DNA of 56,402 nucleotides from Synechococcales cyanobacterium S06 (GTDB lineage: Bacteria; Cyanobacteriota; Cyanobacteriia; Cyanobacteriales; JAABRE01), in the NCBI GenBank assembly GCA_011391125.1, contig JAABRE010000027.1, forward strand, positions 1-56,402, read 5' to 3'. The notes below the pieces were generated by a model. The model was not told the origin of the DNA and ran no database searches. It saw nothing but the letters and a program-made list of their open reading frames with translations. Made by a program: the position numbers and the translations under genes. The number at the start of each line of letters is the position of its first letter. The first letter of the stretch is position 1. Shown in pieces: positions 6,997 through 56,402 of the stretch.

Positions 6997-7354
6997 TCAC
7001 AGGTCTAACTCCGCCATAAAATTTGCCACTGAACCACTTTTAAATTTACCTTCTTGATATTCTTTTTCTGCTTGTTTAACTTCTTTGATTAAATCAGCTC
7101 TTTTTTTTTCTTGTAATCGGTTTTTAATAATTTCAACTAACATTTCTTGATCCTCTAAATTAAGGGCGTTGCACCTATGCAAGATGATTTGATATTTATT
7201 TTCAATGTAGGGGTAGGGCTTGTCCCTACCCTATCAGCGTTTCGGGGGCAACCACAAGGGATTGCCCCTACAATTTCATCTCAGAGTCATGCAACGCCAA
7301 ATTAAGAGCTTCTACGGTTTCGATCGCCTGGTCAAATAATGATCTTGTACTCAT
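6997..7354 (-). pseudogene. Antitoxin gene split by a 134-bp insertion
   Basis: The 5' part (ATG at 7354) encodes MSTRSLFDQAIETVEALNL; the 3' part encodes 'EDQEMLVEIIKNRLQEKKRADLIKEVKQAEKEYQEG...'. Between them lies an inverted-repeat element at 7165-7298 flanked by direct copies of AAATTAAG. Removing the element and one copy joins the halves in frame into a 71-residue protein. That protein resembles the two antitoxins at 12955-13520 ('LEEQ.iLv.iIknR.' then a positively charged helix and 'f.sG'). As it stands the 5' ORF ends within the insert. The 3' part could only be read from an ATG inside the insert, giving a 61-residue chimera. No toxin gene is adjacent. Confidence 0.8.
7165..7298. mobile_element. 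134-bp MITE with 8-bp target duplication
   Basis: Terminal inverted repeats of 9 nt (GGCGTTGCA / TGCAACGCC) flanked by an 8-bp direct repeat, AAATTAAG, at 7157-7164 and 7299-7306. The interior carries hairpins made of GGGTAGGG-type and GGGGCAA-type repeats and no ORF. It interrupts the antitoxin gene described at 6997-7354. Only one copy was seen in this window; the transposase family is not identifiable from the ends alone. Confidence 0.85.
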
Positions 7355-42027: not shown

Positions 42028-43599
42028 ATGTTTGATCAAGTCGATTTTGAGGGTGAATTAAGAACTAATTTTATTAATTTAATTGCTAAATATACAGGAT
42101 TAAAAATTAGAGATTCTGAAATTTCTGTCTTAGTACAGAATATCAATTTAAGAATGAAATCTCTGAGGTTAAATTCCCTGAGAGAATACTATAATTTATT
42201 AAATTATTCAGATCAAGAAAGTAACCAAGAATGGATTACTTTAATTAGTAACTTAACAAATACTGAAAGTTATTTTTTTCGGGATCAAGGTCAGTTTAAT
42301 TTGCTGAGAAATCAGATTATTCCTAATATTATGAAAACTAATATTGAGAGTCGAAATATTAGGATTTGGAGTGCGGGATGTTCCAGTGGAGAAGAAGTTT
42401 ATTCCTTGGCAATTTTGCTCAGGGACATGATTCCAGATTTGGATTTATGGAATGTGATGATCTTGGGTACAGATATTAATGAAAATGCCTTAAATAAAGC
42501 GAAAAAAGGAGTTTATACCACCTGGTCATTTAGGATGGTCAACGATGAGATAACCAAGACGAATTTCAAAGTAATTAATAATCAATATCAAATTAATCCT
42601 CAGATCAAAAAAATTGTCAACTTTGGTGGTTTAAACTTAGTAAAAGACAAATATCCCTCAGAAAATAGTCTGGTTAGGGATATGGATTTAATCATTTGTA
42701 GAAATGTCTTTATTTATTTTCAACCTGCGGCAATTACGGAGGTTTTAGATAAATTTTATGAGACCTTAAAACCCGGAGGTTATTTACTGACAGGTCATGC
42801 AGAATTATCAGGTCAAGATTTACGTAAATATAAAACCCATATTTTTCCTGAGTCTTTGTTATATCAAAAAGAGAATCAAATTAATGGTATTTTGCCCTTA
42901 AATAATCCTTTTCAAAATGCTAATTTACTCGGAAATATGGAGCAAAATAGCTTACCGACAAGTCCCACTTTACCCACATTGCCCACATTTCCTACCTTAA
43001 CAAATAACCTTTCTAATCCTATTCAAACACCAGCTTTATTTGTTCCTCCAGTCGTTCAACCCATCCCATATCCACCGACAACTATACCTTTTGAAAATAC
43101 CAAAAAACCCGATGAACAATTGTTGGAACAAGCGGAAATATTCTTTAAACAAAAGCAATATAATTTAGCTATTGAGAAAGTTAAAGAATACCTTAAAAAG
43201 CACAGTCAAAGCTTTAAAGCTTACTATATTATTGCTAAGATTTATGCCAATATCGGACAACACGAAGAAGCGATCAAAAATTGTCAACTAGCTTTGAAGT
43301 TCAATGAATTTGCCGTCGAACCCTATTATTTATTGGCAAAAATTTCAGAAGATCAAGGAAAGGTTAATGAAAGTAAACAATTGTTAAAGAAAATTATTTA
43401 TTTAGATGCGAATTTTATCCCCGGATATCTAGATTTAGGTCAGATTTATCAACAAGAAGGGGATACAAAACGTGCCTTGAAAATGAGAGAAACGGCTTTA
43501 CAATTATTAACCAAATTAGCGCCAAAAGATCGGCTAGAACATTTAGAATATGCTACAGTATCTGAGTTAATGGAATTGCTAAAAAAACAACTGAGTTAG
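42028..43599 (+). CDS. CheR-type receptor methyltransferase with C-terminal TPRs
   Basis: A 523-residue protein. The N-terminal helical CheR region is followed by the SAM-binding domain: 'IRIWSAGCSSGEEVYSLAILL' (motif I), 'GTDINENALNKAKKGVY' and 'DLIICRNVFIYFQPA' with the downstream 'LKPGGYLLTGHAE'. A Pro/Thr-rich linker (about 290-355) leads to TPR repeats (about 368-510: 'YNLAIEKVKEYLKKHSQSFKAYYIIAKIYANIGQHEEAI'). The CheR-TPR layout matches WspC and FrzF. It would methylate glutamates of the nearby chemoreceptor. It is the first gene of the plus-strand operon; cheW follows after 18 nt. Confidence 0.93.
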   Translation: MFDQVDFEGELRTNFINLIAKYTGLKIRDSEISVLVQNINLRMKSLRLNSLREYYNLLNYSDQESNQEWITLISNLTNTESYFFRDQGQFNLLRNQIIPNIMKTNIESRNIRIWSAGCSSGEEVYSLAILLRDMIPDLDLWNVMILGTDINENALNKAKKGVYTTWSFRMVNDEITKTNFKVINNQYQINPQIKKIVNFGGLNLVKDKYPSENSLVRDMDLIICRNVFIYFQPAAITEVLDKFYETLKPGGYLLTGHAELSGQDLRKYKTHIFPESLLYQKENQINGILPLNNPFQNANLLGNMEQNSLPTSPTLPTLPTFPTLTNNLSNPIQTPALFVPPVVQPIPYPPTTIPFENTKKPDEQLLEQAEIFFKQKQYNLAIEKVKEYLKKHSQSFKAYYIIAKIYANIGQHEEAIKNCQLALKFNEFAVEPYYLLAKISEDQGKVNESKQLLKKIIYLDANFIPGYLDLGQIYQQEGDTKRALKMRETALQLLTKLAPKDRLEHLEYATVSELMELLKKQLS

Positions 43600-43617
43600 T
43601 GATAAGGAGACTAATAA

Positions 43618-44673
43618 ATGGAAGATTATCCTTATTTAATTTTTAATCTCAACACATCGCTATATGGTATTACAACCATGTTGGTGGAGGAGATTTTTTC
43701 GTTACCCGAGTTAACCCCCATTCCCGAAGCTCCTCCCGATATTGTTGGCGTGGTCAATGTCCGTGGGGATATCTTACCAGTAATGGATCTGAATTTACGT
43801 TTTGGTTATGAGTCACCGGATTACCGATTATCTGATACTGTAATCGTTTTGAGATCAGAGGAAATCAGGGTAGGATTGATGGTAAACCAGGTGATTGAGG
43901 TTAGGAATATCAATGGAGATGATATTACCAAAGAACTTTCCCACGGAAGAAAATTAGGAAAACTTGATAGTAAAAAGTTTATTACTGGAGTGGCCAGAAG
44001 TGATTCAGATATTTTAATTTTAATTGATGCGGAAAAATTACTTAAGTATGTAGTCAAACAAGATGTCGATTTTGAAAGTGCAGAAAATGAAGATCAAACT
44101 AATTTAAACGCCGATTTTTTAAAGAAGAAACGCGTTTTTTGTCCCAATGCAACTCCCGAAGAAAGGGCAGTTTTTAAGAAAAGAGCGGAAGCTTTACAAC
44201 AGTCAACTGACACCGAAGATGTTACTGGTTTAAAACCTTTAGCTGTGATTATTTTAAATGAGGAATTTTTCGGAATCGACTTAAAATTGGTGCGGGAATT
44301 TAGCGAGATTAAGAAAGTAACTCCTGTACCTTGCGCGCCATCTCATATTATCGGTAATATGAATTTAAGGGGCGAAATTTTAACTTTAATCGATGTCTGT
44401 GGATTGTTAAATTTACCCTTAAAAAATATTAACAAAAATAATAAGGCCATGGTGGTACAAGTACAAGATATAGTAGCAGGAATTACGGTGGAAGAAGTCT
44501 ATGATGTTATGTTTTTAAATCCCCAAGAAATAACCACTGTACCTACTGCAATTCATTCCATTAATGATGAATATTTGCAGGGTGCTGCACCCTATCACGA
44601 CAAAATGATGAGCATTCTTGACCTACCTAAAATTTTACTTAGTGGTAACTTAACAGTAGATCAAGCTGCTTAA
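43618..44673 (+). CDS. Double CheW-domain coupling protein
   Basis: A 351-residue protein with two CheW domains: about residues 5-145 ('YLIFNLNTSLYGITTMLVEEIFSLPELTPIPEAPPDIVGVVNVRGDILPVMDL') and 200-345 ('LAVIILNEEFFGIDLKLVREFSEIKKVTPVPCAPSHIIGNMNLRGEILTLIDV'). A charged linker near 150-195 contains a CheW-unrelated 'RVFCPNATPEERAVFKKRAEAL' helix. CheW links receptors to the CheA kinase. A tandem CheW may bridge two receptor or kinase sites, much as the separate WspB and WspD do. A good AAGGAG lies upstream of the ATG. Confidence 0.95.
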   Translation: MEDYPYLIFNLNTSLYGITTMLVEEIFSLPELTPIPEAPPDIVGVVNVRGDILPVMDLNLRFGYESPDYRLSDTVIVLRSEEIRVGLMVNQVIEVRNINGDDITKELSHGRKLGKLDSKKFITGVARSDSDILILIDAEKLLKYVVKQDVDFESAENEDQTNLNADFLKKKRVFCPNATPEERAVFKKRAEALQQSTDTEDVTGLKPLAVIILNEEFFGIDLKLVREFSEIKKVTPVPCAPSHIIGNMNLRGEILTLIDVCGLLNLPLKNINKNNKAMVVQVQDIVAGITVEEVYDVMFLNPQEITTVPTAIHSINDEYLQGAAPYHDKMMSILDLPKILLSGNLTVDQAA

Positions 44674-44845
44674 GTTTGATCCCCCTAAATCCCTAGGACT
44701 GAATCATGCGTCAGTTGTTAAAAACGGTGGGGATTTAGGGGATTGGGGGATTGGGGGGATGGAAGTCGCCCTTAAAAAGGAGGATTTAGAGGGCGCAAAG
44801 GGAATCAACCCTAAATTATAATTCACACAAAATGAGGACTAAAAA

Positions 44846-46303
44846 ATGAGCAGTAATCAAGGTTTAAAAATTAGATATTGGATTGGAATTGGCTATGCTA
44901 TTCCCGTAGTTTTATCGATCATCTCTCCTTTGCTGGTAGTATGGAATATCAATAATACCAAGGTGGCTGTTGAGGAAGTTGACCGTGTTAGTTTGTCATT
45001 CCAAGAGTTAACCAATATTATTCGAGGTGTTCAAGGAACATCAAGGGCAACCCGGGGTTATCTATTAGATGCGAATCCCACGAGTTTAAAAAGCGTGGAA
45101 GAGTCAAAAGCGATTTTTGACGAACATTTTACAAATATTCAAGAGTTGATCAAAAATGATGAGCAAATAAAAAGACTTGATGAAGTCGAAGTTAACTTTC
45201 GAGAATTAGAAAAAATTAATCAATTATTAATAGAAACTGTCGATACAAAAGGACAAGCTGCAGCCATTGCTTTATGGAAAAAAGAAGGCGGACGAGATCA
45301 AATAACAAATATAGTCAACTTGTTGACTGAATTTGAGGACGAACAGAAAAAGATTTTTGAAGAATTTGGGAAAAAACAAGACGATAGTTTAAATAGTTTG
45401 GTGACAGTGGTCATAATTTCCAGTAGTTTCATTGTGGCTGCTTCTTTGATATTTGCATTTATCATCTACTTTAATATTACCCGCCGCATTGACGAAGCAT
45501 CCAGTGTGATTGCCAGTTCTTCCCATGAAATTATGGCCACGGTGGAACAACAGGAACGCACTGCTAGTCAACAAGCAGCATCGGTTAATGAAACTACCAC
45601 CACCATGGATGAGTTGGGTGCTTCTTCCCAACAGTCGGCCCAACAAGCGGAATCCGCTGCCATGGCTGCCCAACAAGCTTTACAGGTTGCGGATAATGGT
45701 AATCGCTCCGTGGAAGAAACCCTTGGCGAGATGAATCTACTTAAGGATAAAGTTGGAGCGATCGCCCAACAAATCCTCCGTTTAAGTGATCAAACCGGTC
45801 AAATTGGTAATATTTCCCAACTTGTGTCCGACTTGGCGAACCAAACGAATATGTTGGCGTTAAACGCTGCCGTTGAAGCGGTGAGAGCTGGGGAACATGG
45901 TAAGGGTTTTGCGGTGGTTGCGTCGGAAATCCGCAAATTAGCCGATCAAAGTCGTCAATCTGCGGAAAAAATTAATAATTTGGTTTCCGAAGTCCAAAAC
46001 TCCATTAATTCCACCGTTATGGTGACAGACGAAGGTACAAAAAGCGTGGATTCCTCTGTTCATATTGCACAAAAAAGCGCCATGGCTTTCGCCGAAGTTG
46101 CCCAATCTGTTAATAACGTTGTGTTAAATAACCAGCAAATTTCCTTAACTTTGAAACAACAAGTTGATGCGATTAAACAGGTTTTGGATGCTATGAATAG
46201 TATTAACCAAGGTGCGAGGGAAACCGCCACGGGTATTGGTCAAACCCGCATTGGTACACAAAAACTCACTGAAGCAACCACTAATTTAAAAGAAATGGTG
46301 TAA
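44846..46303 (+). CDS. Methyl-accepting chemotaxis receptor with CHASE3-like sensor
   Basis: A 485-residue receptor with two membrane helices (about 12-33 and 183-207). The outer domain between them ('VQGTSRATRGYLLDANPTSLKSVEESKAIFDEHFTNIQELI') looks like CHASE3. Directly after helix 2 comes the signalling coiled coil, without an obvious HAMP domain. The hairpin tip is 'NMLALNAAVEAVRAGEHGKGFAVVASEIRKLADQS', intact for CheA/CheW binding. The C-terminus is 'GTQKLTEATTNLKEMV'. It lies between the double-CheW and CheA genes of the same operon. The ligand is unknown. Confidence 0.94.
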   Translation: MSSNQGLKIRYWIGIGYAIPVVLSIISPLLVVWNINNTKVAVEEVDRVSLSFQELTNIIRGVQGTSRATRGYLLDANPTSLKSVEESKAIFDEHFTNIQELIKNDEQIKRLDEVEVNFRELEKINQLLIETVDTKGQAAAIALWKKEGGRDQITNIVNLLTEFEDEQKKIFEEFGKKQDDSLNSLVTVVIISSSFIVAASLIFAFIIYFNITRRIDEASSVIASSSHEIMATVEQQERTASQQAASVNETTTTMDELGASSQQSAQQAESAAMAAQQALQVADNGNRSVEETLGEMNLLKDKVGAIAQQILRLSDQTGQIGNISQLVSDLANQTNMLALNAAVEAVRAGEHGKGFAVVASEIRKLADQSRQSAEKINNLVSEVQNSINSTVMVTDEGTKSVDSSVHIAQKSAMAFAEVAQSVNNVVLNNQQISLTLKQQVDAIKQVLDAMNSINQGARETATGIGQTRIGTQKLTEATTNLKEMV

Positions 46304-46312
46304 ATCAATTAA

Positions 46313-46640
46313 TAGGAGTTGGGGAGTTGGGGAAGTAGGGAGGTAGGGAGTTGGGGAAGTAGGGAGTTGGGGAGGTAGGGTGTTGGGGAAGTAGGGTGTT
46401 GGGGAGGTAGGGAGTTGGGGAGGTAGGGTGTTGGGGAAGTAGGGAGCTGGAGAAGTAGGGAGTTGGAGATTTAAGAATATAGTTCCCCCAATACCCTAAT
46501 CCCCTAATCCCCCAATACCCCAATACCCCAATCCCCCAATACCCCAATACCCCAATCCCCCAATCCCCCAATACCCCAATACCCCAATCCCCCAATACCC
46601 CAATCCCCCAATCCCCCAATACCCTAATCCCCCACCGTAT
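46313..46640. repeat. G-rich array followed by C-rich array
   Basis: From 46313 to about 46470 the plus strand is made of units such as AGTTGGGG, AAGTAGGG and AGGTAGGG. From 46483 to 46635 it is made of CCCCAATAC/CCCCAATC units. Each is a degenerate 7-8-nt tandem. The two halves are roughly complementary, so single strands could fold into a long hairpin or G-quadruplexes. It lies between the receptor and the convergent PATAN-REC gene. A long minus-strand ORF through it encodes only low-complexity sequence. Confidence 0.85.
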
Positions 46641-46686
46641 TTGAAACAACCCTGCTTAGAAAGAGGGGGTGAGGGATAGATAACAA

Positions 46687-47853
46687 TTAACTATCAACTG
46701 CTAATAAATATTTACTAATCGAACCTAATACCATGTCCGCATTGGGGGGTTTGCCGAGAAAATCGGTAGCTCCGACTAATTTTGCCCTAGCGCGATCAAT
46801 TAAGGTATCTTGACCAGTTAAAATAATAATTGGTACAGTTTCAAAAACAGGAGTATTGCGCAAAAATTGACAAACACTATAACCATTTGCATTCGGCATA
46901 TTTAAGTCTAAAAAGATAAAATCAGGTTTATTATCAATTAATTGGGCAAAACCGTGCATGGGTTCATTTATTACTAAGACCTTATAACCAGCAGGTTCAA
47001 GAATTTTTTTCAGACTTAAAGCTACGATGGGACTATCATCAATACAAGCAACTAAAATATTTTCTTTAACTACTTTTTTCTTAGTAGTATCTGTAGTTTT
47101 TTCTGCTCCAGAATCGGTATCTTTATCCTTTAAAAAAGGTGCAGATAAATCACCAATTCTTTTAAATTCGATGATTTTTTTGCTTACTAAAGGTACTAAA
47201 TGACGAGTTACCATGGCCACAGATTTATTAATTCTTAAAGCAATATCCCAGATGGTGTATCTACCATTGAGATATTTTTCTAAAACTGAGATTTCTTCGG
47301 CTTTTACTCCTTCTTTTAATTTAGGTACAAATGAGGGACTAATAGTTCCTAAACCCATTTTTTGCCAGTCTTCTTGTAATTGTTTAACATTAGTAATTAC
47401 TGACTGAATTTCGACTGTCGATAGGGCTAAACCAAGGGATAACTGAGTCTCTGTTTTGTCAACACCTTTCCAATTACTGCTAGTATCTGGACTTTCTCCT
47501 AACTCAAATAAACATTCCTCGGCCACGGAACTAATTACCGCTTTTGCTTCACTTAAACTAATTTGTTTTTGACAAATTCCTTGATAAAGTAAGTCGTATT
47601 CCCATAAACTTTCTTTGGATAATTTCTCTGATTTGATTTCCCATTTAGGACAGGTTTTTTGGATTGCTCTTGATATTCTTCTGACTCGATGAACTCCATC
47701 CCTAATAAATAATAAACGACCATGAACTAAATCTAAAGTTTCTAAAACATTACCATTTTGTAATACTAATCGTCCGGTAGCTTTATTATTTGCTAAACTT
47801 TCAAGTTGTTTACTTAAGTTATTTAGTGTTATTAATGTAGTGTTTGTACCCAT
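46687..47853 (-). CDS. PATAN-type response regulator (DUF4388-REC)
   Basis: A 388-residue regulator. The N-terminal 240 residues ('LSKQLESLANNKATGRLVLQNG...LDLVHGRLLFIRDGVHRVRRI') match the DUF4388/PATAN domain, and the C-terminal 120 are a receiver: 'ACIDDSPIVALSL', phospho-acceptor Asp in 'IFLDLNMPN', Thr in 'ILTGQD' and Lys in 'LGKPPN'. Proteins of this build (PixG, PilG, TaxP1) mediate type IV pilus-related phototaxis output in cyanobacteria and some bind PilB. It is convergent to the receptor gene and divergent from cheA, and is a likely output of the adjacent kinase. Confidence 0.92.
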   Translation of the reverse strand: MGTNTTLITLNNLSKQLESLANNKATGRLVLQNGNVLETLDLVHGRLLFIRDGVHRVRRISRAIQKTCPKWEIKSEKLSKESLWEYDLLYQGICQKQISLSEAKAVISSVAEECLFELGESPDTSSNWKGVDKTETQLSLGLALSTVEIQSVITNVKQLQEDWQKMGLGTISPSFVPKLKEGVKAEEISVLEKYLNGRYTIWDIALRINKSVAMVTRHLVPLVSKKIIEFKRIGDLSAPFLKDKDTDSGAEKTTDTTKKKVVKENILVACIDDSPIVALSLKKILEPAGYKVLVINEPMHGFAQLIDNKPDFIFLDLNMPNANGYSVCQFLRNTPVFETVPIIILTGQDTLIDRARAKLVGATDFLGKPPNADMVLGSISKYLLAVDS

Positions 47854-48470
47854 TTTTTTTTTATTACTACTCCTATGTTAATTTACTGATTGTAACTATA
47901 TTTTATTTTCTTCTTTATTGACCAATCTATCCTAATAGATTATCCTAGTAATTAGACTTTTAAAAACATAATTATTGTTTATAGTTTAGTTCCTGTTTCT
48001 CTCATTATAACAATCATACATTTACTCAAGACAAATCAAAAGTTTTTTTACAAAATTTCATAATTAAATATAAAGTTTTTTTACAAAAACTAAGGAGGTT
48101 AAGTTAAGATCACACAATTTAATATAATGTTACTAGCTGACAAATCGAAAAATAAAGGATTAACCCAAAAAAGAGCAAGTTAATCCATAAAATGCCCTTA
48201 GATTTGGCTACTTCTGTTCTTTATTTGCTAGTTTTCCCTAATCTGCCCTCATAAATTGAACCAAAACTACCAAATAAATTGGGGAGGTAGGTACTGTAGG
48301 GGTAGGTCTTGTACCTACCCAGGGGGCCTTTTGTAGGGGTAGGTCTTGTACCTACCCAGAAAAAAAATTTATTTCTGGTTCAATTCGGGAAGGTCAAACT
48401 TCTTACTTCTTGAACCGACTATTGGGCGATCGCCTTTGAAAAAATAGTCGAAGCAGGTCGAACAATTTAA
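47854..48470. other. Intergenic region with twin palindromes
   Basis: Between the PATAN-REC gene and the receptor remnant. Promoters for both flanking transcription units should lie here. It is AT-rich and includes two near-copies of a palindromic 27-nt unit, TGTAGGGGTAGGTCTTGTAC..CCTACCC, at 48295-48322 and 48332-48359. No gene is visible. Confidence 0.55.
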
Positions 48471-48560
48471 AGTAACAAAACAGCAATTCTGATTACTCAG
48501 ACAAAAGTAGGTACACAAAAATTAACAGAAACTGCCTCGGAGTTAAAACAAATGATTTAA
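48471..48560 (+). pseudogene. C-terminal remnant of a second chemoreceptor
   Basis: An open stretch of 29 codons ending at the TAA 48558-48560 reads '...LITQTKVGTQKLTETASELKQMI'. The intact receptor upstream ends 'GIGQTRIGTQKLTEATTNLKEMV', the same motif. A TAA in the same frame at 48468-48470 precedes it. The rest of this receptor gene is gone, apparently by deletion. It lies just upstream of cheA, where the gene would have been. Confidence 0.75.
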
Positions 48561-48665
48561 AAAATGAGTTATATTAAACAAAATTGTCGGGGTAATTGGT
48601 AAATTATCCTTACTAAGAATTAAGTAAAAAAACCAGTAAAAATAGATAAAAGGAAGGTCAAAAAA

Positions 48666-51431
48666 ATGGCATTTATTGAAGACGATGAATTAAGAGGTTT
48701 ATATCAAGTTTCCAGTGAAGAACATTTACAAAAATTAGAATCAGGGTTATTAAGTTTAGAAAAAAATCCCGAACAAAGAGAGATTTTAGTGGAGTTGATG
48801 AGAGAAGCTCATAGTTTAAAAGGAGATTCTCGTATATTAGGATTAGAAGATATTGAGAAAGTAATTCACAAAGTCGAAGATATTATTGTCGGCATAAATA
48901 AAGAAGAAATTGTCTTAAATTCCCAGTTAAGCGATCGCCTTTATCAAGCTTTAGATGCTTTGAAAAAGATGGTAGAAGAAGCGATTACCGATGAACCTTG
49001 CGGCCTAAATGCGGATGAAATTGTATCTGAATTAATGACTGCCATGAAGGCAGAAAAATCTCCTCCAGAACTAGAAGATATTGAGTTAGAAATAACAGAA
49101 ACAGAACCAGAAAAAAGCGAATCAAACGAAGGATTTGTCAGTTTAATTGACGATGACGACTTGCGAGAAATGTATCAAAGTTCCAGTAAAAAACATTTAG
49201 AAAGAATTAAATCCTGTTTAGAAAAACTCGAAAAAAATGGAGCTGATCAAGAAACCTTAGCTGAATTATTAGCAACAGCAGAAAGCTTAAAAACTGACTC
49301 AATTATTATTGGAGTAGAATCCGTTGAAATCGGCGCTGAAAAATTAGAAGAACACTTAGATAACTTAATTAAAAATAAGGTAAATATTACCGCAGAAATA
49401 ATCCATAAAATCCAGCATTTTTTAATAGGAATTGAGCAGTTAATTAGCGAAGCAATTACAGGTAAACCCAGCGCAATAACAGTGGAAAACCTGCTCAGTG
49501 AATTACCAGAAAATGTTAGCAAAGAAAGTGAAACAGAGCTGGAGAAACCACAACAACAACAAGCGGAATTAATAATACCAGAAAAAACCGTCAAACCAGA
49601 ACCCAAAGAAGCCAAACCCGTTGTCAAAATAGAAGAAACTCCCCCAGCTTCTCCCGTGGTTCATGCTCCTAAAAAAGCCAATATTGCGCCCACTCCCAGC
49701 AAAACGGATGCCATGGTTTCTGCCCCAACAGCCGGTCAACCTTATCGCATTGACACAATTCGAGTTAAAACCCAACATTTAGATGCGTTAATGACCCAAA
49801 CCGGGGAATTAACCGTCACCAAAATTCGCATTGCCCATACAGCCAATGAAATTGAAATATTAACAAATCTGTGGGAAGAATGGAAAAATCGCAAATATCA
49901 AAGACACTATTTCAGCGAAAATGAAGACACTTATCAAGAGCGTTTAGAAGAAGTGATCCAACGTTTGCGGATTTCCGCCAGCGAGAATAGTACCCGTTTG
50001 GATATTATTAGCGAGGATTTAGAAGAAAAAATAAGCACCCTGAGAATGTTACCCCTTTCCACCGTATTCCAGCTATTTCCGCGCTTAGTGAGGGATTTGG
50101 CTAAACAAGAGGGGAAAGAGATCGAATTAATGATTGAAGGGGGAGAAACCGCCGCAGATAAGCAAATCCTCGAAGAAATTAAGGACCCCTTAATGCACAT
50201 TTTAAGGAATGCAGTTGATCACGGGATTGAAACTCCCCAAGACCGGGAAAAAATGGGGAAACCAAGAACGGGTACAATTCGCTTAAAAGGCTATCAAACA
50301 GCCAGTAATATTATTATCGAAGTACAAGACGATGGTCAGGGTTTAGACCTACAGAAAATCAAAAAAACCGCCATCAAACGGGGAATGTATCACCCGGAAG
50401 AGTTGGATGTCATGAGCGATAATCAGCTTTATTCCTTAATTTTAGCCCCTGGATTTTCCACCCGTAGTTTTGTCACGGAAGTCTCAGGAAGGGGTGTTGG
50501 TTTAGATGTCCTACAAACTAACGTCAAAAAATTAAAAGGTCAAATCCAAATTGATTCCAAACTCGGGGAAGGTTGCACTTTTAGGATTCAATTAGGTACA
50601 ACTTTGGCCACTGCTAATGTTTTGCTTGTGGAAGTAGCCGGCATTACCCACGGAGTTCCCATTGAATATGTACAGACTAATCTGTTAGTCTCTCCTGAGC
50701 AAATTTTCACCATTGAAGGTAAGGAGACGATCGCCTTAGATAATCAAGGTGTCTCAGTTGCTTCCTTGGCGCAACTCTTAGAATTACCCGAAAAGCAAAG
50801 CAAAATGCACAAGCAAATACCCTGTATTTTATTAAACGTCGGCGATGAAAAATTTGGCGTGTTTGTCGATCGCCTGATCGATACTCAGGATGTGGTGATT
50901 AAACCCCAAAGTAAACTGTTAAAACGGGTGAGAAATATCACGGGAGCGACTATCCTTGGTACAGGGGAAGTGTGCATGATTATTAATCCCCCAGATTTAC
51001 TCAAATCCCTACAAAGACAAACTGGGGGAGGATTTAGTCGTGAAAGGGAAGAAGTAGTAGAAAGTACCCAACAGGTAGTTTTATTGGCGGAAGATTCGAT
51101 TACCATTAGAACCCAAGAAAAACGCATTTTAGAAGCAGCGGGATATGAAGTTGTTACCGCAGTGGATGGCCTAGACGGTTACAATAAATTAAGAAGTCGT
51201 CATTTCGATGCCGTGGTTTCTGACATCCAAATGCCGAATATGGATGGGTTAACCCTAGCGACCAAAATTCGTGAAATCCCTGAATATAGCGAATTACCGA
51301 TTATTTTAGTCACCTCTCTGGCCTCTGATGAAGATAAAAGAAAAGGTGCCGCGGCGGGAGCGAATGCCTATATCACCAAGGGGAACTTTAATCAGGATAT
51401 TCTCGTAGATACTTTAAAACGATTAGTTTAA
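48666..51431 (+). CDS. cheA: CheA-type hybrid histidine kinase with two Hpt domains and a receiver
   Basis: A 921-residue kinase. Hpt1 (about 3-105) has the phospho-acceptor His49 in 'REAHSLKGDSRILG'. A second Hpt-like domain (about 158-265) begins with the same 'IDDDDLREMYQSSSKKHL' pattern but has Glu206 ('ATAESLKTDS') where the His should be. Next come a Pro-rich linker, the dimerisation helices ('IRVKTQHLDALMTQTGELTVTKIRI'), the ATPase domain (N-box 'NAVDHGIETP', G-box 'SGRGVGLDVLQTN') and a CheW-like domain. A C-terminal receiver has Asp in 'VVSDIQMPN'. CheA-REC fusions are typical of Wsp/Frz-like pathways. cheB follows after 4 nt. Confidence 0.95.
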   Translation: MAFIEDDELRGLYQVSSEEHLQKLESGLLSLEKNPEQREILVELMREAHSLKGDSRILGLEDIEKVIHKVEDIIVGINKEEIVLNSQLSDRLYQALDALKKMVEEAITDEPCGLNADEIVSELMTAMKAEKSPPELEDIELEITETEPEKSESNEGFVSLIDDDDLREMYQSSSKKHLERIKSCLEKLEKNGADQETLAELLATAESLKTDSIIIGVESVEIGAEKLEEHLDNLIKNKVNITAEIIHKIQHFLIGIEQLISEAITGKPSAITVENLLSELPENVSKESETELEKPQQQQAELIIPEKTVKPEPKEAKPVVKIEETPPASPVVHAPKKANIAPTPSKTDAMVSAPTAGQPYRIDTIRVKTQHLDALMTQTGELTVTKIRIAHTANEIEILTNLWEEWKNRKYQRHYFSENEDTYQERLEEVIQRLRISASENSTRLDIISEDLEEKISTLRMLPLSTVFQLFPRLVRDLAKQEGKEIELMIEGGETAADKQILEEIKDPLMHILRNAVDHGIETPQDREKMGKPRTGTIRLKGYQTASNIIIEVQDDGQGLDLQKIKKTAIKRGMYHPEELDVMSDNQLYSLILAPGFSTRSFVTEVSGRGVGLDVLQTNVKKLKGQIQIDSKLGEGCTFRIQLGTTLATANVLLVEVAGITHGVPIEYVQTNLLVSPEQIFTIEGKETIALDNQGVSVASLAQLLELPEKQSKMHKQIPCILLNVGDEKFGVFVDRLIDTQDVVIKPQSKLLKRVRNITGATILGTGEVCMIINPPDLLKSLQRQTGGGFSREREEVVESTQQVVLLAEDSITIRTQEKRILEAAGYEVVTAVDGLDGYNKLRSRHFDAVVSDIQMPNMDGLTLATKIREIPEYSELPIILVTSLASDEDKRKGAAAGANAYITKGNFNQDILVDTLKRLV

Positions 51432-51435
51432 AATA

Positions 51436-52488
51436 ATGGCCATTAAATTGCTTTTAGTCGAAGATTCGATCATTGTCACCACCATCCTTAAAAAGATTTT
51501 TAATTCAGCGCCAGACATTGAGGTGGTAGGCACTGCTGTCAATGGTATAGAAGGTTTGGAGTTAGTTTATAAACTGCAACCTGATGTCATTTGCACTGAT
51601 TTACATATGCCGAAAATGAACGGGTTGGAATTTACCTCAGAGGTAATGGAAAAATGCCCTCGTCCTATTTTGGTGATTAGTGCATCAGTACAGGAAGACG
51701 ACATCCGTCATGTGTTCGATTTACTGGAAGCGGGAGCTGTTGATGTAATTCCGAAGCCCCGCGCTGGTACAATAACTGATTATGAATTGATGAGAACTCA
51801 GTTGATCAATAAGGTGAGGGTAATTGCTGGAGTTAAGGTCTTTACCCGCAAAAAGTCCCGTCTTTCCCAGACGGTAGCAATTCCAGCTCCTCCTCCGAGC
51901 TCTGCTCCTCCCCAATTTAGCGGCAAAACCGCCACTAAAATCGTGGTGATTGGAGCTTCCACCGGCGGTCCTCAAGCTTTACAAGCTATTTTAAGTCAAT
52001 TAAAACCCGGTTTCCCCTATCCCCTAATTTGTGTTCAACATATTAGTATGGGGTTTTTATCCGGTTTATTGGATTGGTTGGCTACAAGTTGCCCTTTGCC
52101 GATTAAAACGGCTGTCCATGGCGAAATTCCCCAAGCTGGGGTGGTCTATTTTCCCCCCGAAAACCAACATTTGCAAATTAATTCCATGGGACGTTTTCTT
52201 TGCAGCAGTCTGCCGCCTGTTGACGGCCACCGCCCTTCTGTGACGGTGACTTTGCAATCCGTAGGGCAGTATTACCGTAGTAATGCGATCGGAATTTTGT
52301 TGACTGGTATGGGCAGGGATGGAGCGGCCGGACTTTTAGCCATGAGTCAAGCCGGCGGTTTCACCATTGCCCAAGATGAAGCAAGTTCCGTAGTTTTCGG
52401 AATGCCCAAGGAGGCGATCGCCCTTGGAGCGGCTAAAAAAGTCCTCCCCTTACAGGACATTGCGGCTACTTTATTAAGGAGTGTGTAA
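51436..52488 (+). CDS. cheB: Chemotaxis methylesterase CheB
   Basis: A 350-residue protein: receiver domain (Asp10, Asp55 in 'CTDLHMPK', Lys107 in 'IPKPRA'), a Pro/Ser linker (about 145-163) and the esterase/deamidase domain with catalytic Ser175 ('GASTGG'), His202 ('QHISMGF') and Asp295 ('MGRDGAAGL'). It removes methyl groups added by CheR and is activated by phosphorylation from CheA. It begins 4 nt after cheA. It is complete, so adaptation by methylation is possible in this pathway. Confidence 0.96.
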   Translation: MAIKLLLVEDSIIVTTILKKIFNSAPDIEVVGTAVNGIEGLELVYKLQPDVICTDLHMPKMNGLEFTSEVMEKCPRPILVISASVQEDDIRHVFDLLEAGAVDVIPKPRAGTITDYELMRTQLINKVRVIAGVKVFTRKKSRLSQTVAIPAPPPSSAPPQFSGKTATKIVVIGASTGGPQALQAILSQLKPGFPYPLICVQHISMGFLSGLLDWLATSCPLPIKTAVHGEIPQAGVVYFPPENQHLQINSMGRFLCSSLPPVDGHRPSVTVTLQSVGQYYRSNAIGILLTGMGRDGAAGLLAMSQAGGFTIAQDEASSVVFGMPKEAIALGAAKKVLPLQDIAATLLRSV

Positions 52489-53251: not shown

Positions 53252-53557
53252 TTATGAGACTAAATAAATACGCTCTTCTCCTTTTTCAAGGGTTAAACGA
53301 TAACCACAGGCCTTAACTATTTGTAATAAATTAGTAAGTTTTAAATCTTTTTGTTTTCCAGAACGAATATCTTGAATTACAGAAGGAGAAATCTTCGCTT
53401 CTTTTGCTAATTGACGTACGGATTTCTGGTCATTTTCCATTAAGGAAATTAATAATTCAGAGAGTAAAAATTCCTGATATCCTTCCTCTAATTTAGCTTT
53501 AAATTCGGGATTTTCCATTAATTTATTAAAGGTTGAGCTTTCATTATTTTTATTCAT
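53252..53557 (-). CDS. HigA/XRE-family antitoxin
   Basis: A 101-residue protein with a C-terminal helix-turn-helix: 'SVRQLAKEAKISPSVIQDIRSGKQKDLKLTNLLQIVKACGYRLTLEKG'. The ATG at 53557 overlaps the end of the upstream toxin reading frame (toxin TAA at 53550-53552), the usual HigB-HigA order with coupled translation. An upstream in-frame start would lie inside the toxin gene. The toxin is interrupted by a MITE, so the antitoxin may be orphaned. It binds DNA and normally represses its own operon. Confidence 0.85.
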   Translation of the reverse strand: MNKNNESSTFNKLMENPEFKAKLEEGYQEFLLSELLISLMENDQKSVRQLAKEAKISPSVIQDIRSGKQKDLKLTNLLQIVKACGYRLTLEKGEERIYLVS

Positions 53558-54037
53558 AATATGTTCCTTTTTCATTTCTTTTGATATAATCATTCATGTA
53601 TTTTATAGCTTTTTCCTTATCTTTTTGAGGTAATTTTTGCTGTTTTTTATAAAAACCATTGGTGATATAGCATTTTCAGATTAAATGAGATACAACCCCT
53701 CACCCCCCTACCCCCCTCATCCCAAAGGGAGAGGGGGGAAAAGAGTCCTCATAAATTTGGCAAGTGCTATAATAATTTTTTTACCCGTAAAGAAAAAGCA
53801 TAAAAATCGATCAGGTTGTGGTTTAAAAGCGTATATTTTATCGCCTTCATTGCGGAATAGTTCTTTATTACTAATTTTACCAAAATCACCTATTCTTTTT
53901 ACTAGAAATAAAAATTTTAGTTGCTGTTTTTCTGGTAGTGAATAAAAATACTCTCTCGCTGCACTATTGCTATCTTCCTCAAAATACCACTCTAACTGGA
54001 AAGCATCACCAACATAAATTACATATTCTTTGTTCAT
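53550..54037 (-). pseudogene. HigB/RelE-like toxin interrupted by a family A MITE
   Basis: From the ATG at 54037 the frame gives 'MNKEYVIYVGDAFQLEWYFEEDSNSAAREYFYSLPEKQQLKFLFLVKRIGDFGKISNKELFRNEGDKIYAFKPQPDRFLCFFFTGKKIII', then enters the MITE and ends at 53717 with a foreign tail. Beyond the element the gene continues 'TNGFYKKQQKLPQKDKEKAIKYMNDYIKRNEKGTYYE' to a stop at 53550-53552. Excision of the 102-bp element plus one TA restores a 127-residue Gp49/HigB-type protein ('..IYAFKP...RF..FF....I.L.NGF.KK.QK.P..'). The C-terminal catalytic region is separated, so the toxin should be inactive. Confidence 0.88.
53668..53769. mobile_element. MITE family A copy inside a HigB-like toxin gene
   Basis: 102 bp, begins TAGCATTTTCAGATTAAATG and ends TTGGCAAGTGCTA, flanked by TA (53666-53667, 53770-53771). 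One extra G in the internal G-run distinguishes it from the copies at 7444 and 41246, so it is a recent insertion. Confidence 0.9.
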
Positions 54038-54383
54038 ATTGTAACACTTTACCAGTACAGTTAGCGATAGTCAAGACTAATTTGAAAAATCACTCTTTTC
54101 TATTTCTTTAATAATTTTCATGGTTTCTAAACTCACCGTTGTAACCCGCATTATTAAGTCAATTACGGTTTCTTTGTAATCAGCAAAACAATAATTATTA
54201 AACTTTTCAGCAATAGTTTGATCCTTCGCTTTTTTCTCCTTATATTGGTCTAAAATCCACTCAATTGCGGACCGATTTCCTAATTTATATTCCCATACTT
54301 CGGGGGGAATTTCTGTTAAGGTGGTGACATCATCTATTAATATTTGGTTTTTGGTTTTATCTACTTTTAATTTGGGTTTTATA

Positions 54384-54442
54384 ACCCCCCAACCCCCCTT
54401 ACCCCCCCTAACCCCCCCTTGAAAGGGGGGGGTAGGGGGGGT
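54384..54442. repeat. In-frame GC-rich palindromic repeat in the methyltransferase gene
   Basis: CCCCCC-run/CTTGAAAGGGGGG palindrome encoding 'TPPTPPFQGGVRGGKGGWG' on the gene's strand, with frame preserved. It lies in the C-terminal specificity region. Confidence 0.8.
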
Positions 54443-54654
54443 AAAGTCAATTCTTTTCACAGAATAAGGTTTAATTGTTTCATAATTAATATGTAAATCC
54501 ATTAATTTTTGTCCCCAATTTTTCCACTGATTAAAGTCATCATAAAAGGGAATTCTTGGGAATTCTCGCTTTAAATTTAACTCATATTTTTGGCGATATT
54601 TCGGGTTATGTAAAACACCATAAATGTAATAGAAAATGTCTTCTTTTGTGATTT

Positions 54655-54742
54655 CACCCTCACCCCCTACCCCTCTCCCACAGGATGAGGGGAGTCTTCT
54701 CCCCCCTCTCTCTGAGAGAGAGGGGGGTTGGGGGGGTGAGGG
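54655..54742. repeat. In-frame GC-rich repeat of the 'PPSLSERGG' type
   Basis: CCCTCTCTCTGAGAGAGAGGGG palindrome with CCCTCACCCCC flanks, encoding 'PSPPQPPSLSERGGRRLPSS' and more in the methyltransferase frame. The core differs from the other three repeats and resembles the family A MITE interior. Confidence 0.75.
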
Positions 54743-55521
54743 TTGATAATATTCCCTAAACTGCTGCAATCCCCAATCAGTAATATTTTCCTGTCTGTTT
54801 CCTCCCTCATCATAAGTATATAAGGCAAAACAAGTAGCTCCTCTGGCACAAAAATTTAAGTCACATAAAGTATTAATAGCTAAAATAAGAAAATCAGTTT
54901 GTTCATTATTAGCAAAACAAATAACTTGATTAACTGAATTGGTATTATTAAATAATAACGGTTGTGCTCCTCTTATATCAATAGGAATATAACCAAAATA
55001 AAGGTATTTTGCGACAAAAGGTCTATAATGAGCTTTTCTTAAGTCTTCTTGATAAAAAATACCTAATTTTTCTTTTCTTAATTTATCTCTTTTGATCATT
55101 TTACTCCACTTAATTAAATTTCTTTCCCCAAGAAAATTATCGACAACGGGATTAGATTCTTGTTTAATATCTTGATAATTATGATCTTTTTTATATTCAA
55201 TCCATCTGTTAACTTCATGATTATATTCATCTATGAAAAACTTACTTTTAGCTATTAAATTTTCTAAATCAAAATCATAAACCCATTCATCCCTATTCGT
55301 AGCAACTCCATTAGAATATAACTCAAAAATAGTTTGTTTATTTTTCTTGTCAACCAAAGGAATTAAACTTTCAAAATCATTATTAGTTAGGTTAATCCAA
55401 TTATTATTTTTATCGGGTGTAATATGGGTAAAATTAAGGGAATCAAATTTAGTTTTAGCTAAATAATCCCGCTTTTCTTGTCCACTATTGAAATTAATTA
55501 AAGAATTATAAAATATTTGAC

Positions 55522-55566
55522 ACCCCCCCTTTAATTCCCCCCCTTGAAAGGGGGGGTTAGGGGGGG
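55522..55566. repeat. In-frame GC-rich palindromic repeat (PPNPPFQGG type)
   Basis: CCCCCCTTGAAAGGGGGGG palindrome with flanking C- and G-runs, encoding 'TPPNPPFQGGELKGG' within the methyltransferase frame without disrupting it. Confidence 0.8.
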
Positions 55567-55980
55567 TAGATTTTTTTACTAAAAAAGTAATAGCAACCCC
55601 TATCATAATATTAAAAACATTACCAGTTGTATCACCTGCTCTAATATCTCCACCTAAATCTATCGTATAAATATAATCAAATTCATTAGCTACAGTTTTT
55701 CTAAAACCATCAAATCCTTTAGAGTTAATAAAAGAAGAATTTGTAATAAATGCCACAATTCCATTCTCATTTAATCTATCAGTTGCCCATCTTAGAAACC
55801 TCGCATACATATCATAAACCTTCGTTTTTTGAGCGGTACTTTCCTTCACATAAGTATCTTTAATTCGCTTATCTATGGCAGGATATTCACGATTTTTATT
55901 GTTATCATTTTCGTTTTGCTGATTTGCATTATAGGGAGGATTACCGATAATTACTGATATTTTACGGTCATTTTGTCGCA

Positions 55981-56022
55981 CCCCCCCTAACCCCCCCTTT
56001 CAAGGGGGGGACATAGGGGGGG
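55981..56022. repeat. GC-rich palindromic repeat that supplies a stop codon
   Basis: CCCCCCCTAACCCCCCCTTT followed by CAAGGGGGGG and ACATAGGGGGGG. On the gene's strand it reads '...PPMSPP-stop-KGGLGGV', with TGA at 56000-56002. The orientation is opposite to the repeat at 55522, whose same core reads TTTCAA (Phe-Gln) instead of TTGAAA. Confidence 0.85.
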
Positions 56023-56402
56023 TCTCCAAAGACATGGCGAATAAATCGCCCTGTTTTTGCGCAAAAGAAGTATGATCTAAAGTATCCACTAAACAAATAT
56101 TATTAAACTCCTCATATTCCTCCATTTTTTGCTGATAAGTATATTCAATATTTAGGTTAGCAATGTAATATGGTAAAATAGCCAATTCATTACAATGAAT
56201 CTCATTTTGATACTTATATTTAAGCTTATCTTTCGGCAAATATTCGATTAATTCTGTTATAAATGTACCTGTACCTGTCGCAGGGTCTAATATTTCAACT
56301 TGTGGATCAGCTAATAATTTATTAAAGTGTTTATGTACTAGATAATCCGTACTTTCAATCATGAATTTAACAATTTCATTGGGAGTATAAACAATACCCA
56401 AC
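56000..56402 (-). pseudogene. Type ISP-like DNA methyltransferase, N-proximal fragment (cut by window edge)
   Basis: At least 133 codons up to the right edge of the window. It carries 'VYTPNEIVKFMIESTDYLVHKHF' and methyltransferase motif I 'ILDPATGTGTFITELIEYL' (SAM binding), followed by 'NEIHCNELAILPYYIANLNIEYTY'. It ends 'FAMSLETPPMSPP', where the last residues and the stop come from a GC-rich repeat. The nuclease and helicase parts expected of a type ISP enzyme would lie beyond the edge. The apparent ATG at 56401 is inside a conserved motif and is not the gene start. Confidence 0.8.

Follow-up and report, generated by a model that had tools for sequence, protein, structure and literature searches.

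For chemotaxis-like control of movement in cyanobacteria the model has been Synechocystis. This organism has neither CheR nor CheB and is considered to detect the direction of light spatially (PMC4758948); its PATAN regulators bind PilB1/PilC (PMC12288463). Among other described systems, a Wsp cassette was reported in cyanobacteria in 2016 (PMC4971617), and the chemosensory systems of Chloroflexota have all been classed in the alternative cellular functions (ACF) superfamily (PMC3447774). The locus considered here is a cluster of six chemosensory genes in contig JAABRE010000027.1 of Synechococcales cyanobacterium S06 (assembly GCA_011391125.1), and the window is the whole stretch analysed, 56,402 nucleotides long. 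We propose, with a probability of roughly 0.55, that the cluster encodes a methylation-adapting pathway of a distinct lineage, named W-type in this analysis after the clade formed by its CheA, CheB and CheR, in which a PATAN-REC regulator would pass the signal to the type IV pilus motor.

An initial annotation, made from the sequence alone, had given this gene set with its coordinates and had pointed out the lack of CheR and CheB in Synechocystis; the latter agrees with the literature cited above, and the former with the Pfam matches of all six proteins:

42028-43599, plus strand: CheR methyltransferase with C-terminal TPR repeats (CheR-TPR), 523 aa; Pfam CheR, 5.6e-52
43618-44673, plus strand: CheW-CheW fusion adaptor, 351 aa; two Pfam CheW domains in one protein, 2e-58
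44846-46303, plus strand: membrane chemoreceptor (methyl-accepting chemotaxis protein, MCP) with CHASE3 sensor and MCP signalling domain, 485 aa; Pfam CHASE3 1e-13, MCP 1.6e-38
46687-47853, minus strand: PATAN-REC response regulator, the putative output, 388 aa; Pfam REC, 2e-20
48666-51431, plus strand: CheA hybrid kinase, 921 aa; Hpt1, Hpt2, dimerisation, HATPase, CheW and REC domains by Pfam
51436-52488, plus strand: CheB with REC and methylesterase domains, 350 aa; Pfam REC and CheB methylesterase, 2.1e-60

All six genes are intact, and the catalytic motifs of CheB (Ser/His/Asp), CheR (including those of the S-adenosylmethionine site) and CheA, together with the receiver residues, align with those of their E. 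coli counterparts. CheB also exceeds the cut-off of the NCBIfam CheB model, the other NCBIfam equivalogs being uninformative for the cluster. CheA carries two Hpt domains, of which the first keeps the phospho-accepting histidine (His49) and the second is degenerate, with Glu at residue 206. The one remaining receptor is full length and its hairpin tip is conserved; Pfam matched no HAMP domain in it. By gene content, this is a complete chemosensory system, for which adaptation by receptor methylation is predicted. The description "complete operon" therefore stands as regards the parts, all of which are present, and falls as regards continuity, because 2.4 kb splits mcp from cheA.

The descent of the cluster was examined in trees of the CheA core (one of 106 rows and a more careful one of 43 rows), of CheB and of CheR. 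The references came from named genomes, from E. coli and from a locus (L246) that we take, from its layout MCP-CheA-CheB-CheR and its protein sizes, to be the Frz locus of Myxococcus xanthus; a search of plasmids for named CheA references gave distant matches only. The W-type CheAs are monophyletic (support 100/99 in the careful tree, 93 in the larger one) and include cyanobacterial sequences, Candidatus Magnetominusculus and one Elusimicrobia bacterium, and the W-type clade reappears with CheB (100) and CheR (99). In the careful tree the Wsp, Frz, tax-type and flagellar CheAs occupy separate clades; that of the flagellar classes (E. coli and Bacillota; F1, F7), supported at 99/95, does not contain the window CheA. 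Several deep branches are weak; the clades are stable and the branching order among them is not. These trees place the window cluster outside Wsp and Frz by descent, in a separate, widespread and mainly cyanobacterial lineage. Thus, the label "Wsp/Frz-like" has to be abandoned, while the idea of a non-flagellar pathway equipped for methylation holds: CheR and CheB are present and intact, and the comparison of CheA and CheB with class references, set beforehand as a check, yields no placement in a classic flagellar class.

The lineage is far from rare. CheB was found at E<=1e-60 in 92 of 390 Cyanobacteriia genomes, with identities in two bands, one of about 83 genomes at 47–61% (W-type, including a few partial matches) and a smaller one at 36–40% (Wsp type). 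All five gene types (cheR, cheW-cheW, mcp, cheA, cheB) lie within 20 kb in 21 of 33 CheB-centred W-type regions, several of the remaining 12 being cut by contig ends; the conserved neighbourhood that had been expected in relatives therefore exists. Most W-type loci have the CheW-CheW fusion, which occurs in none of the Wsp-type loci examined, and the number of tandem receptors varies from one to five. The same five-gene operon is present in the nitrospirotal Candidatus Magnetominusculus sp. LBB02 (locus L112, 188-8367), which suggests that the cluster has moved between phyla. No experimental study of the W-type lineage was found in the searchable literature, and it is apparently unstudied.

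Two variants around this lineage may be recorded in passing. In Gastranaerophilales and similar genomes (L123, L126, L140) a CheW-CheW fusion lies near an MCP-CheA pair, and the CheAs of L123 and L126 form a branch adjoining the W-type clade; in the W-type loci L085, L086 and L087 a divergent REC protein of 370–377 aa and a CheY are found between cheA and cheB.

As regards the output, a PATAN-REC gene lies inside the cluster or within about 1.3 kb of it in 11 W-type loci (the window, L061, L063, L067, L068, L069, L073, L078, L080, L081 and L202), in varying order and strand, that of L202 being likewise antisense within its cluster. The window copy, 12 che-adjacent copies from the 10 other loci and an orphan paralog of the same genome (contig C77) form one clade (100/99), distinct from the tax-type PATAN-RECs. 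Homologues of the PATAN domain of the window protein occur elsewhere in the genome, among them those of stronger PATAN proteins. In eight genomes (G397, G344, G350, G231, G301, G066, G189, G359) no other protein matches the window PATAN-REC as well as the one encoded next to the che cluster, in a search that scored at most 73 candidates per genome and missed the cluster copy of G082, found in its locus L063. None of the 11 loci has a stand-alone CheY in the region examined, whereas 20 W-type loci have one and lack this PATAN-REC, a mutual exclusion with a Fisher p of 0.001 when relatedness is ignored. On the CheA tree the 11 loci belong to one subclade (100), and PATAN adjacency requires 3 changes on the tree of W-type CheAs. 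Since families such as f5, f27 and f38 are split between the PATAN-REC and CheY types of output, the regulator follows the lineage of the cluster more than the family of the host, a pattern that we read as a probable product of transfer, or of old duplication and loss. When the open reading frames in about 45 W-type neighbourhoods, that of the window cluster among them, were searched by motif and not by profile, no GGDEF/GGEEF motif was found, so that a cyclic di-GMP (c-di-GMP) route is not indicated. In this respect the initial annotation, which had noted the absence of a diguanylate cyclase and had named the PATAN-REC protein as the natural candidate output, is upheld on the first count and gains support on the second, through orthology, adjacency in 11 loci and the absence of a stand-alone CheY there; PATAN-REC is the best candidate for the output.

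CheA phosphorylates receiver domains, and the methylation of receptors is set by CheR and CheB. These properties, the binding of PATAN regulators to PilB1/PilC and the presence of adjacent PilB-like (669 aa) and PilT-like (386 aa) ATPases on contig C168 of this genome lead, taken together, to a putative pathway from receptor to CheA, to PATAN-REC and to the pilus. The receptor would control the autophosphorylation of His49 of CheA, and the phosphoryl group would pass to the REC domain of CheB, bringing about an adaptation opposed by CheR-TPR, to the REC of CheA itself, which could serve as a sink or a relay, and to the neighbouring PATAN-REC. The latter would replace, in this subclade, the stand-alone CheY of other W-type clusters, and would then, like the PATAN regulators of Synechocystis, act on PilB/PilC of the pilus motor. 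Phosphotransfer, receptor methylation, the pilus target and the stimulus are the steps that we infer. More tentative, and falling somewhat short of even odds, is the wider proposition that in one lineage a methylation-adapting system acquired a PATAN-REC, which took over from the usual CheY and moved with the cluster between cyanobacterial families.

A number of observations weigh against the proposed pathway. The receptor has a single strict methylation-site match (residue 231), and the PATAN (DUF4388) domain of the window protein stays under the Pfam cut-off (E 0.019), which is reached by its ortholog in L202 (25.1 vs 25 bits). The PATAN-REC gene is antisense and convergent on mcp, hence outside the transcript of the cluster, and L079 and L064, although they fall in the same CheA subclade, have no such gene nearby. 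The genome contains many other response regulators and CheA bears its own REC; a receptor remnant and repeat arrays, described below, are signs of a rearranged locus; and the roles in phosphotransfer, methylation and motility are predicted from genes.

Some of these points lend themselves to a different explanation, in which the PATAN-REC would be a mere passenger and the output would be the REC of CheA or an unlinked CheY or other response regulator. The antisense gene, beside repeats and a receptor remnant, may indeed have been inserted, and this would fit the two subclade members without it as well as the stand-alone CheY of other W-type loci. However, its ortholog accompanies 10 further clusters, from the families f5, f9, f27, f38 and f51, in differing arrangements and strands, while by a rough estimate, each genome having only a handful of these genes, adjacency by chance would amount to a few percent per locus; a passenger is consequently unlikely, if still to be taken seriously. 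Much less credible is a decaying locus, which has lost a receptor, been invaded by repeats and may be inactive in this strain: the MCP remnant, the minisatellites and the antisense gene that splits the operon could be so interpreted, but the genes and their catalytic residues are all preserved, and the loss of a receptor is an ordinary event, because the number of tandem receptors varies so widely in relatives.

The remaining alternatives assign the cluster to known systems. A true Wsp system, in which the receptor senses surfaces, WspC/WspF set methylation, a GGDEF protein is phosphorylated and c-di-GMP is the output, would also contain CheR-TPR, CheA-REC and CheB, and the grouping of W-type and Wsp CheAs as sisters is not rejected by the approximately unbiased (AU) test (p-AU 0.18), which leaves room for a distant sister relation. 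Nevertheless, the Wsp CheA clade (100) excludes the window CheA, whose placement within it is rejected (p-AU 2e-5), the Wsp CheRs (WspC) and CheBs (WspF) form clades of their own (100 in both trees) without the window proteins, the adaptor is a fusion and no GGDEF/GGEEF motif was found in the W-type neighbourhoods searched. In addition, the organism's Wsp-type clusters lie outside the window, as follows from the layout of two loci of this genome (4.8 Mb, 168 contigs, four CheR genes) and from their matches to Pseudomonas: contig C92 (L006, 3779-13403) carries cheW, mcp, cheR-TPR, mcp, cheW, cheA-REC and cheB, and C80 (L005, 7497-14759) carries cheW, cheR-TPR, mcp, cheW and cheA-REC, with no cheB in the stretch examined. 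Their CheAs group, fully supported, with WspE of Pseudomonas and Ralstonia, the two clusters likewise group with WspC and WspF, and C92 matches the Pseudomonas Wsp loci with its CheA (about 600–700 bits), CheR (240–260) and CheB (about 350), all of which makes a Wsp identity for the window cluster scarcely tenable. A cassette similar to that of C92 has been reported in P. priestleyi (PMC4971617). Membership by homology in the Frz family, with control of gliding reversals, is very improbable too: the Frz inventory (two CheW, MCP, CheA-REC, CheB, CheR-TPR) is alike, the order in L246 is partly the same and the control of motility reversals is plausible as a common role, but the Frz CheAs (FrzE, Myxococcota) form a separate clade at 100/100, their union with the W-type is disfavoured (p-AU 0.033), the Frz CheB and CheR fall outside the W-type clades, and the window receptor is a membrane CHASE3 protein, whereas FrzCD has no membrane anchor. 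Equally improbable is a tax/pil system of the type IV pilus class that would have gained CheR and CheB secondarily, for which the PATAN-REC and the multiple Hpt domains, typical of tax systems, might speak; the window CheA is separate from the tax-type CheAs of its own genome (99 in the 106-row tree; p-AU 0.010 for the union), CheR, CheB and CheA all yield one and the same W-type clade, and the PATAN-REC belongs to another clade than the tax-type ones.

The 2.4 kb between mcp and cheA hold, besides the antisense PATAN-REC gene, the following elements:

46315-46466, no strand: minisatellite with a 16-bp unit (Tandem Repeats Finder), lying where mcp and PATAN-REC converge and forming the left arm of a long inverted repeat
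46484-46634, no strand: minisatellite with an 8/24-bp unit (Tandem Repeats Finder), right arm of that inverted repeat
48426-48560, plus strand: 3′ end remnant of a second MCP gene, upstream of cheA, with one internal stop (tblastn)

As RNA, the inverted repeat (46315-46634) folds at -173.8 kcal/mol (z -4.7) and would make a very stable hairpin. The remnant matches the MCPs of relatives with 52% identity over 46 aa (E 6e-7, tblastn against the 2.4-kb target), and tandem MCPs are common at the corresponding position in relatives; from this similarity, we regard 48426-48557 as coding for the C-terminal end of a second receptor that was lost. Its origin as a recent copy of the intact window MCP was considered and dropped, since the MCPs of relatives match better overall. 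The degraded receptor and the repeat arrays indicate that the locus has been rearranged. A palindrome-like element, GTAGGGGTAGGTCTTGTACCTACCC, is repeated at 48296-48320, 48333-48357 and 7207-7231 of the window, two of the copies being exact and one nearly so. Further away, the window contains a ribosomal protein L10 leader (Rfam RF00557; 39377-39559) in the neighbouring operon of ribosomal proteins; a helix-turn-helix protein adjoining a Gp49-like protein, likely a toxin-antitoxin pair of the HigBA/RelE type (53252-54037, minus strand); and a large protein, split here into two reading frames, that carries the methyltransferase motif NPPY and probably belongs to a restriction-modification enzyme (54077-56401, minus strand).

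If the wider proposition, of a PATAN-REC that took the place of CheY and moved between families with the cluster, is correct, some cyanobacteria would differ from Synechocystis in possessing temporal sensing with a molecular memory, which would feed straight into the motor of the type IV pilus. Synechocystis has served as the model, yet about a fifth of the sampled cyanobacteria carry a W-type CheB, and a subset of these clusters is tied to PATAN-REC regulators, the kind that touches the pilus motor. The filamentous Phormidium lacuna responds to temporal changes in light by an unknown mechanism (PMC13383048), for which systems like the W-type would be a natural candidate, provided that the strain carries one. 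The set of CheR-TPR, CheA-REC and CheB is by itself no proof of Wsp.

When the known systems are compared with the window, the closest are the other cyanobacterial W-type clusters and that of Candidatus Magnetominusculus, which share CheR-TPR, CheW-CheW, MCP, CheA-REC and CheB in identical gene order and differ in their one to five receptors and in that most have, instead of PATAN-REC, either a stand-alone CheY or no regulator in the vicinity; in some members of families f27 and f38 CheR has no detected TPR region. Wsp has in common the CheR-TPR, CheA-REC, CheB, methylation machinery and non-flagellar character, but with separate CheW genes (WspB, WspD), another type of receptor and, in Pseudomonas, a GGDEF output (WspR). 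The Frz system of M. xanthus is alike in inventory, CheR-TPR, partial gene order (MCP-CheA-CheB) and a possible role in motility, and unlike in its receptor, its output regulator and the lineages of its CheA, CheB and CheR; nor is there a match to a FrzZ-like double receiver, the window regulator being a PATAN-REC with one REC. With Synechocystis tax1-3 and Nostoc hmp the cluster shares PATAN-REC, a CheA hybrid with several Hpt domains and the context of type IV pili, although Synechocystis is without the CheR and CheB (PMC4758948) that the window has intact, and the tax-type loci of the same genome have CheA and PATAN-REC from other clades. Finally, the CheR-TPR, the CheA with REC and an extra Hpt, and the multidomain response regulator correspond to the make-up of the ACF superfamily (PMC3447774, PMC10542144), a loose grouping matched here on gene make-up, and Chloroflexota sequences are among the neighbours of the W-type in the CheA tree. 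On these comparisons, the window cluster belongs to a chemosensory lineage whose make-up is like that of ACF systems and whose putative partner is a PATAN-REC specific to the lineage.

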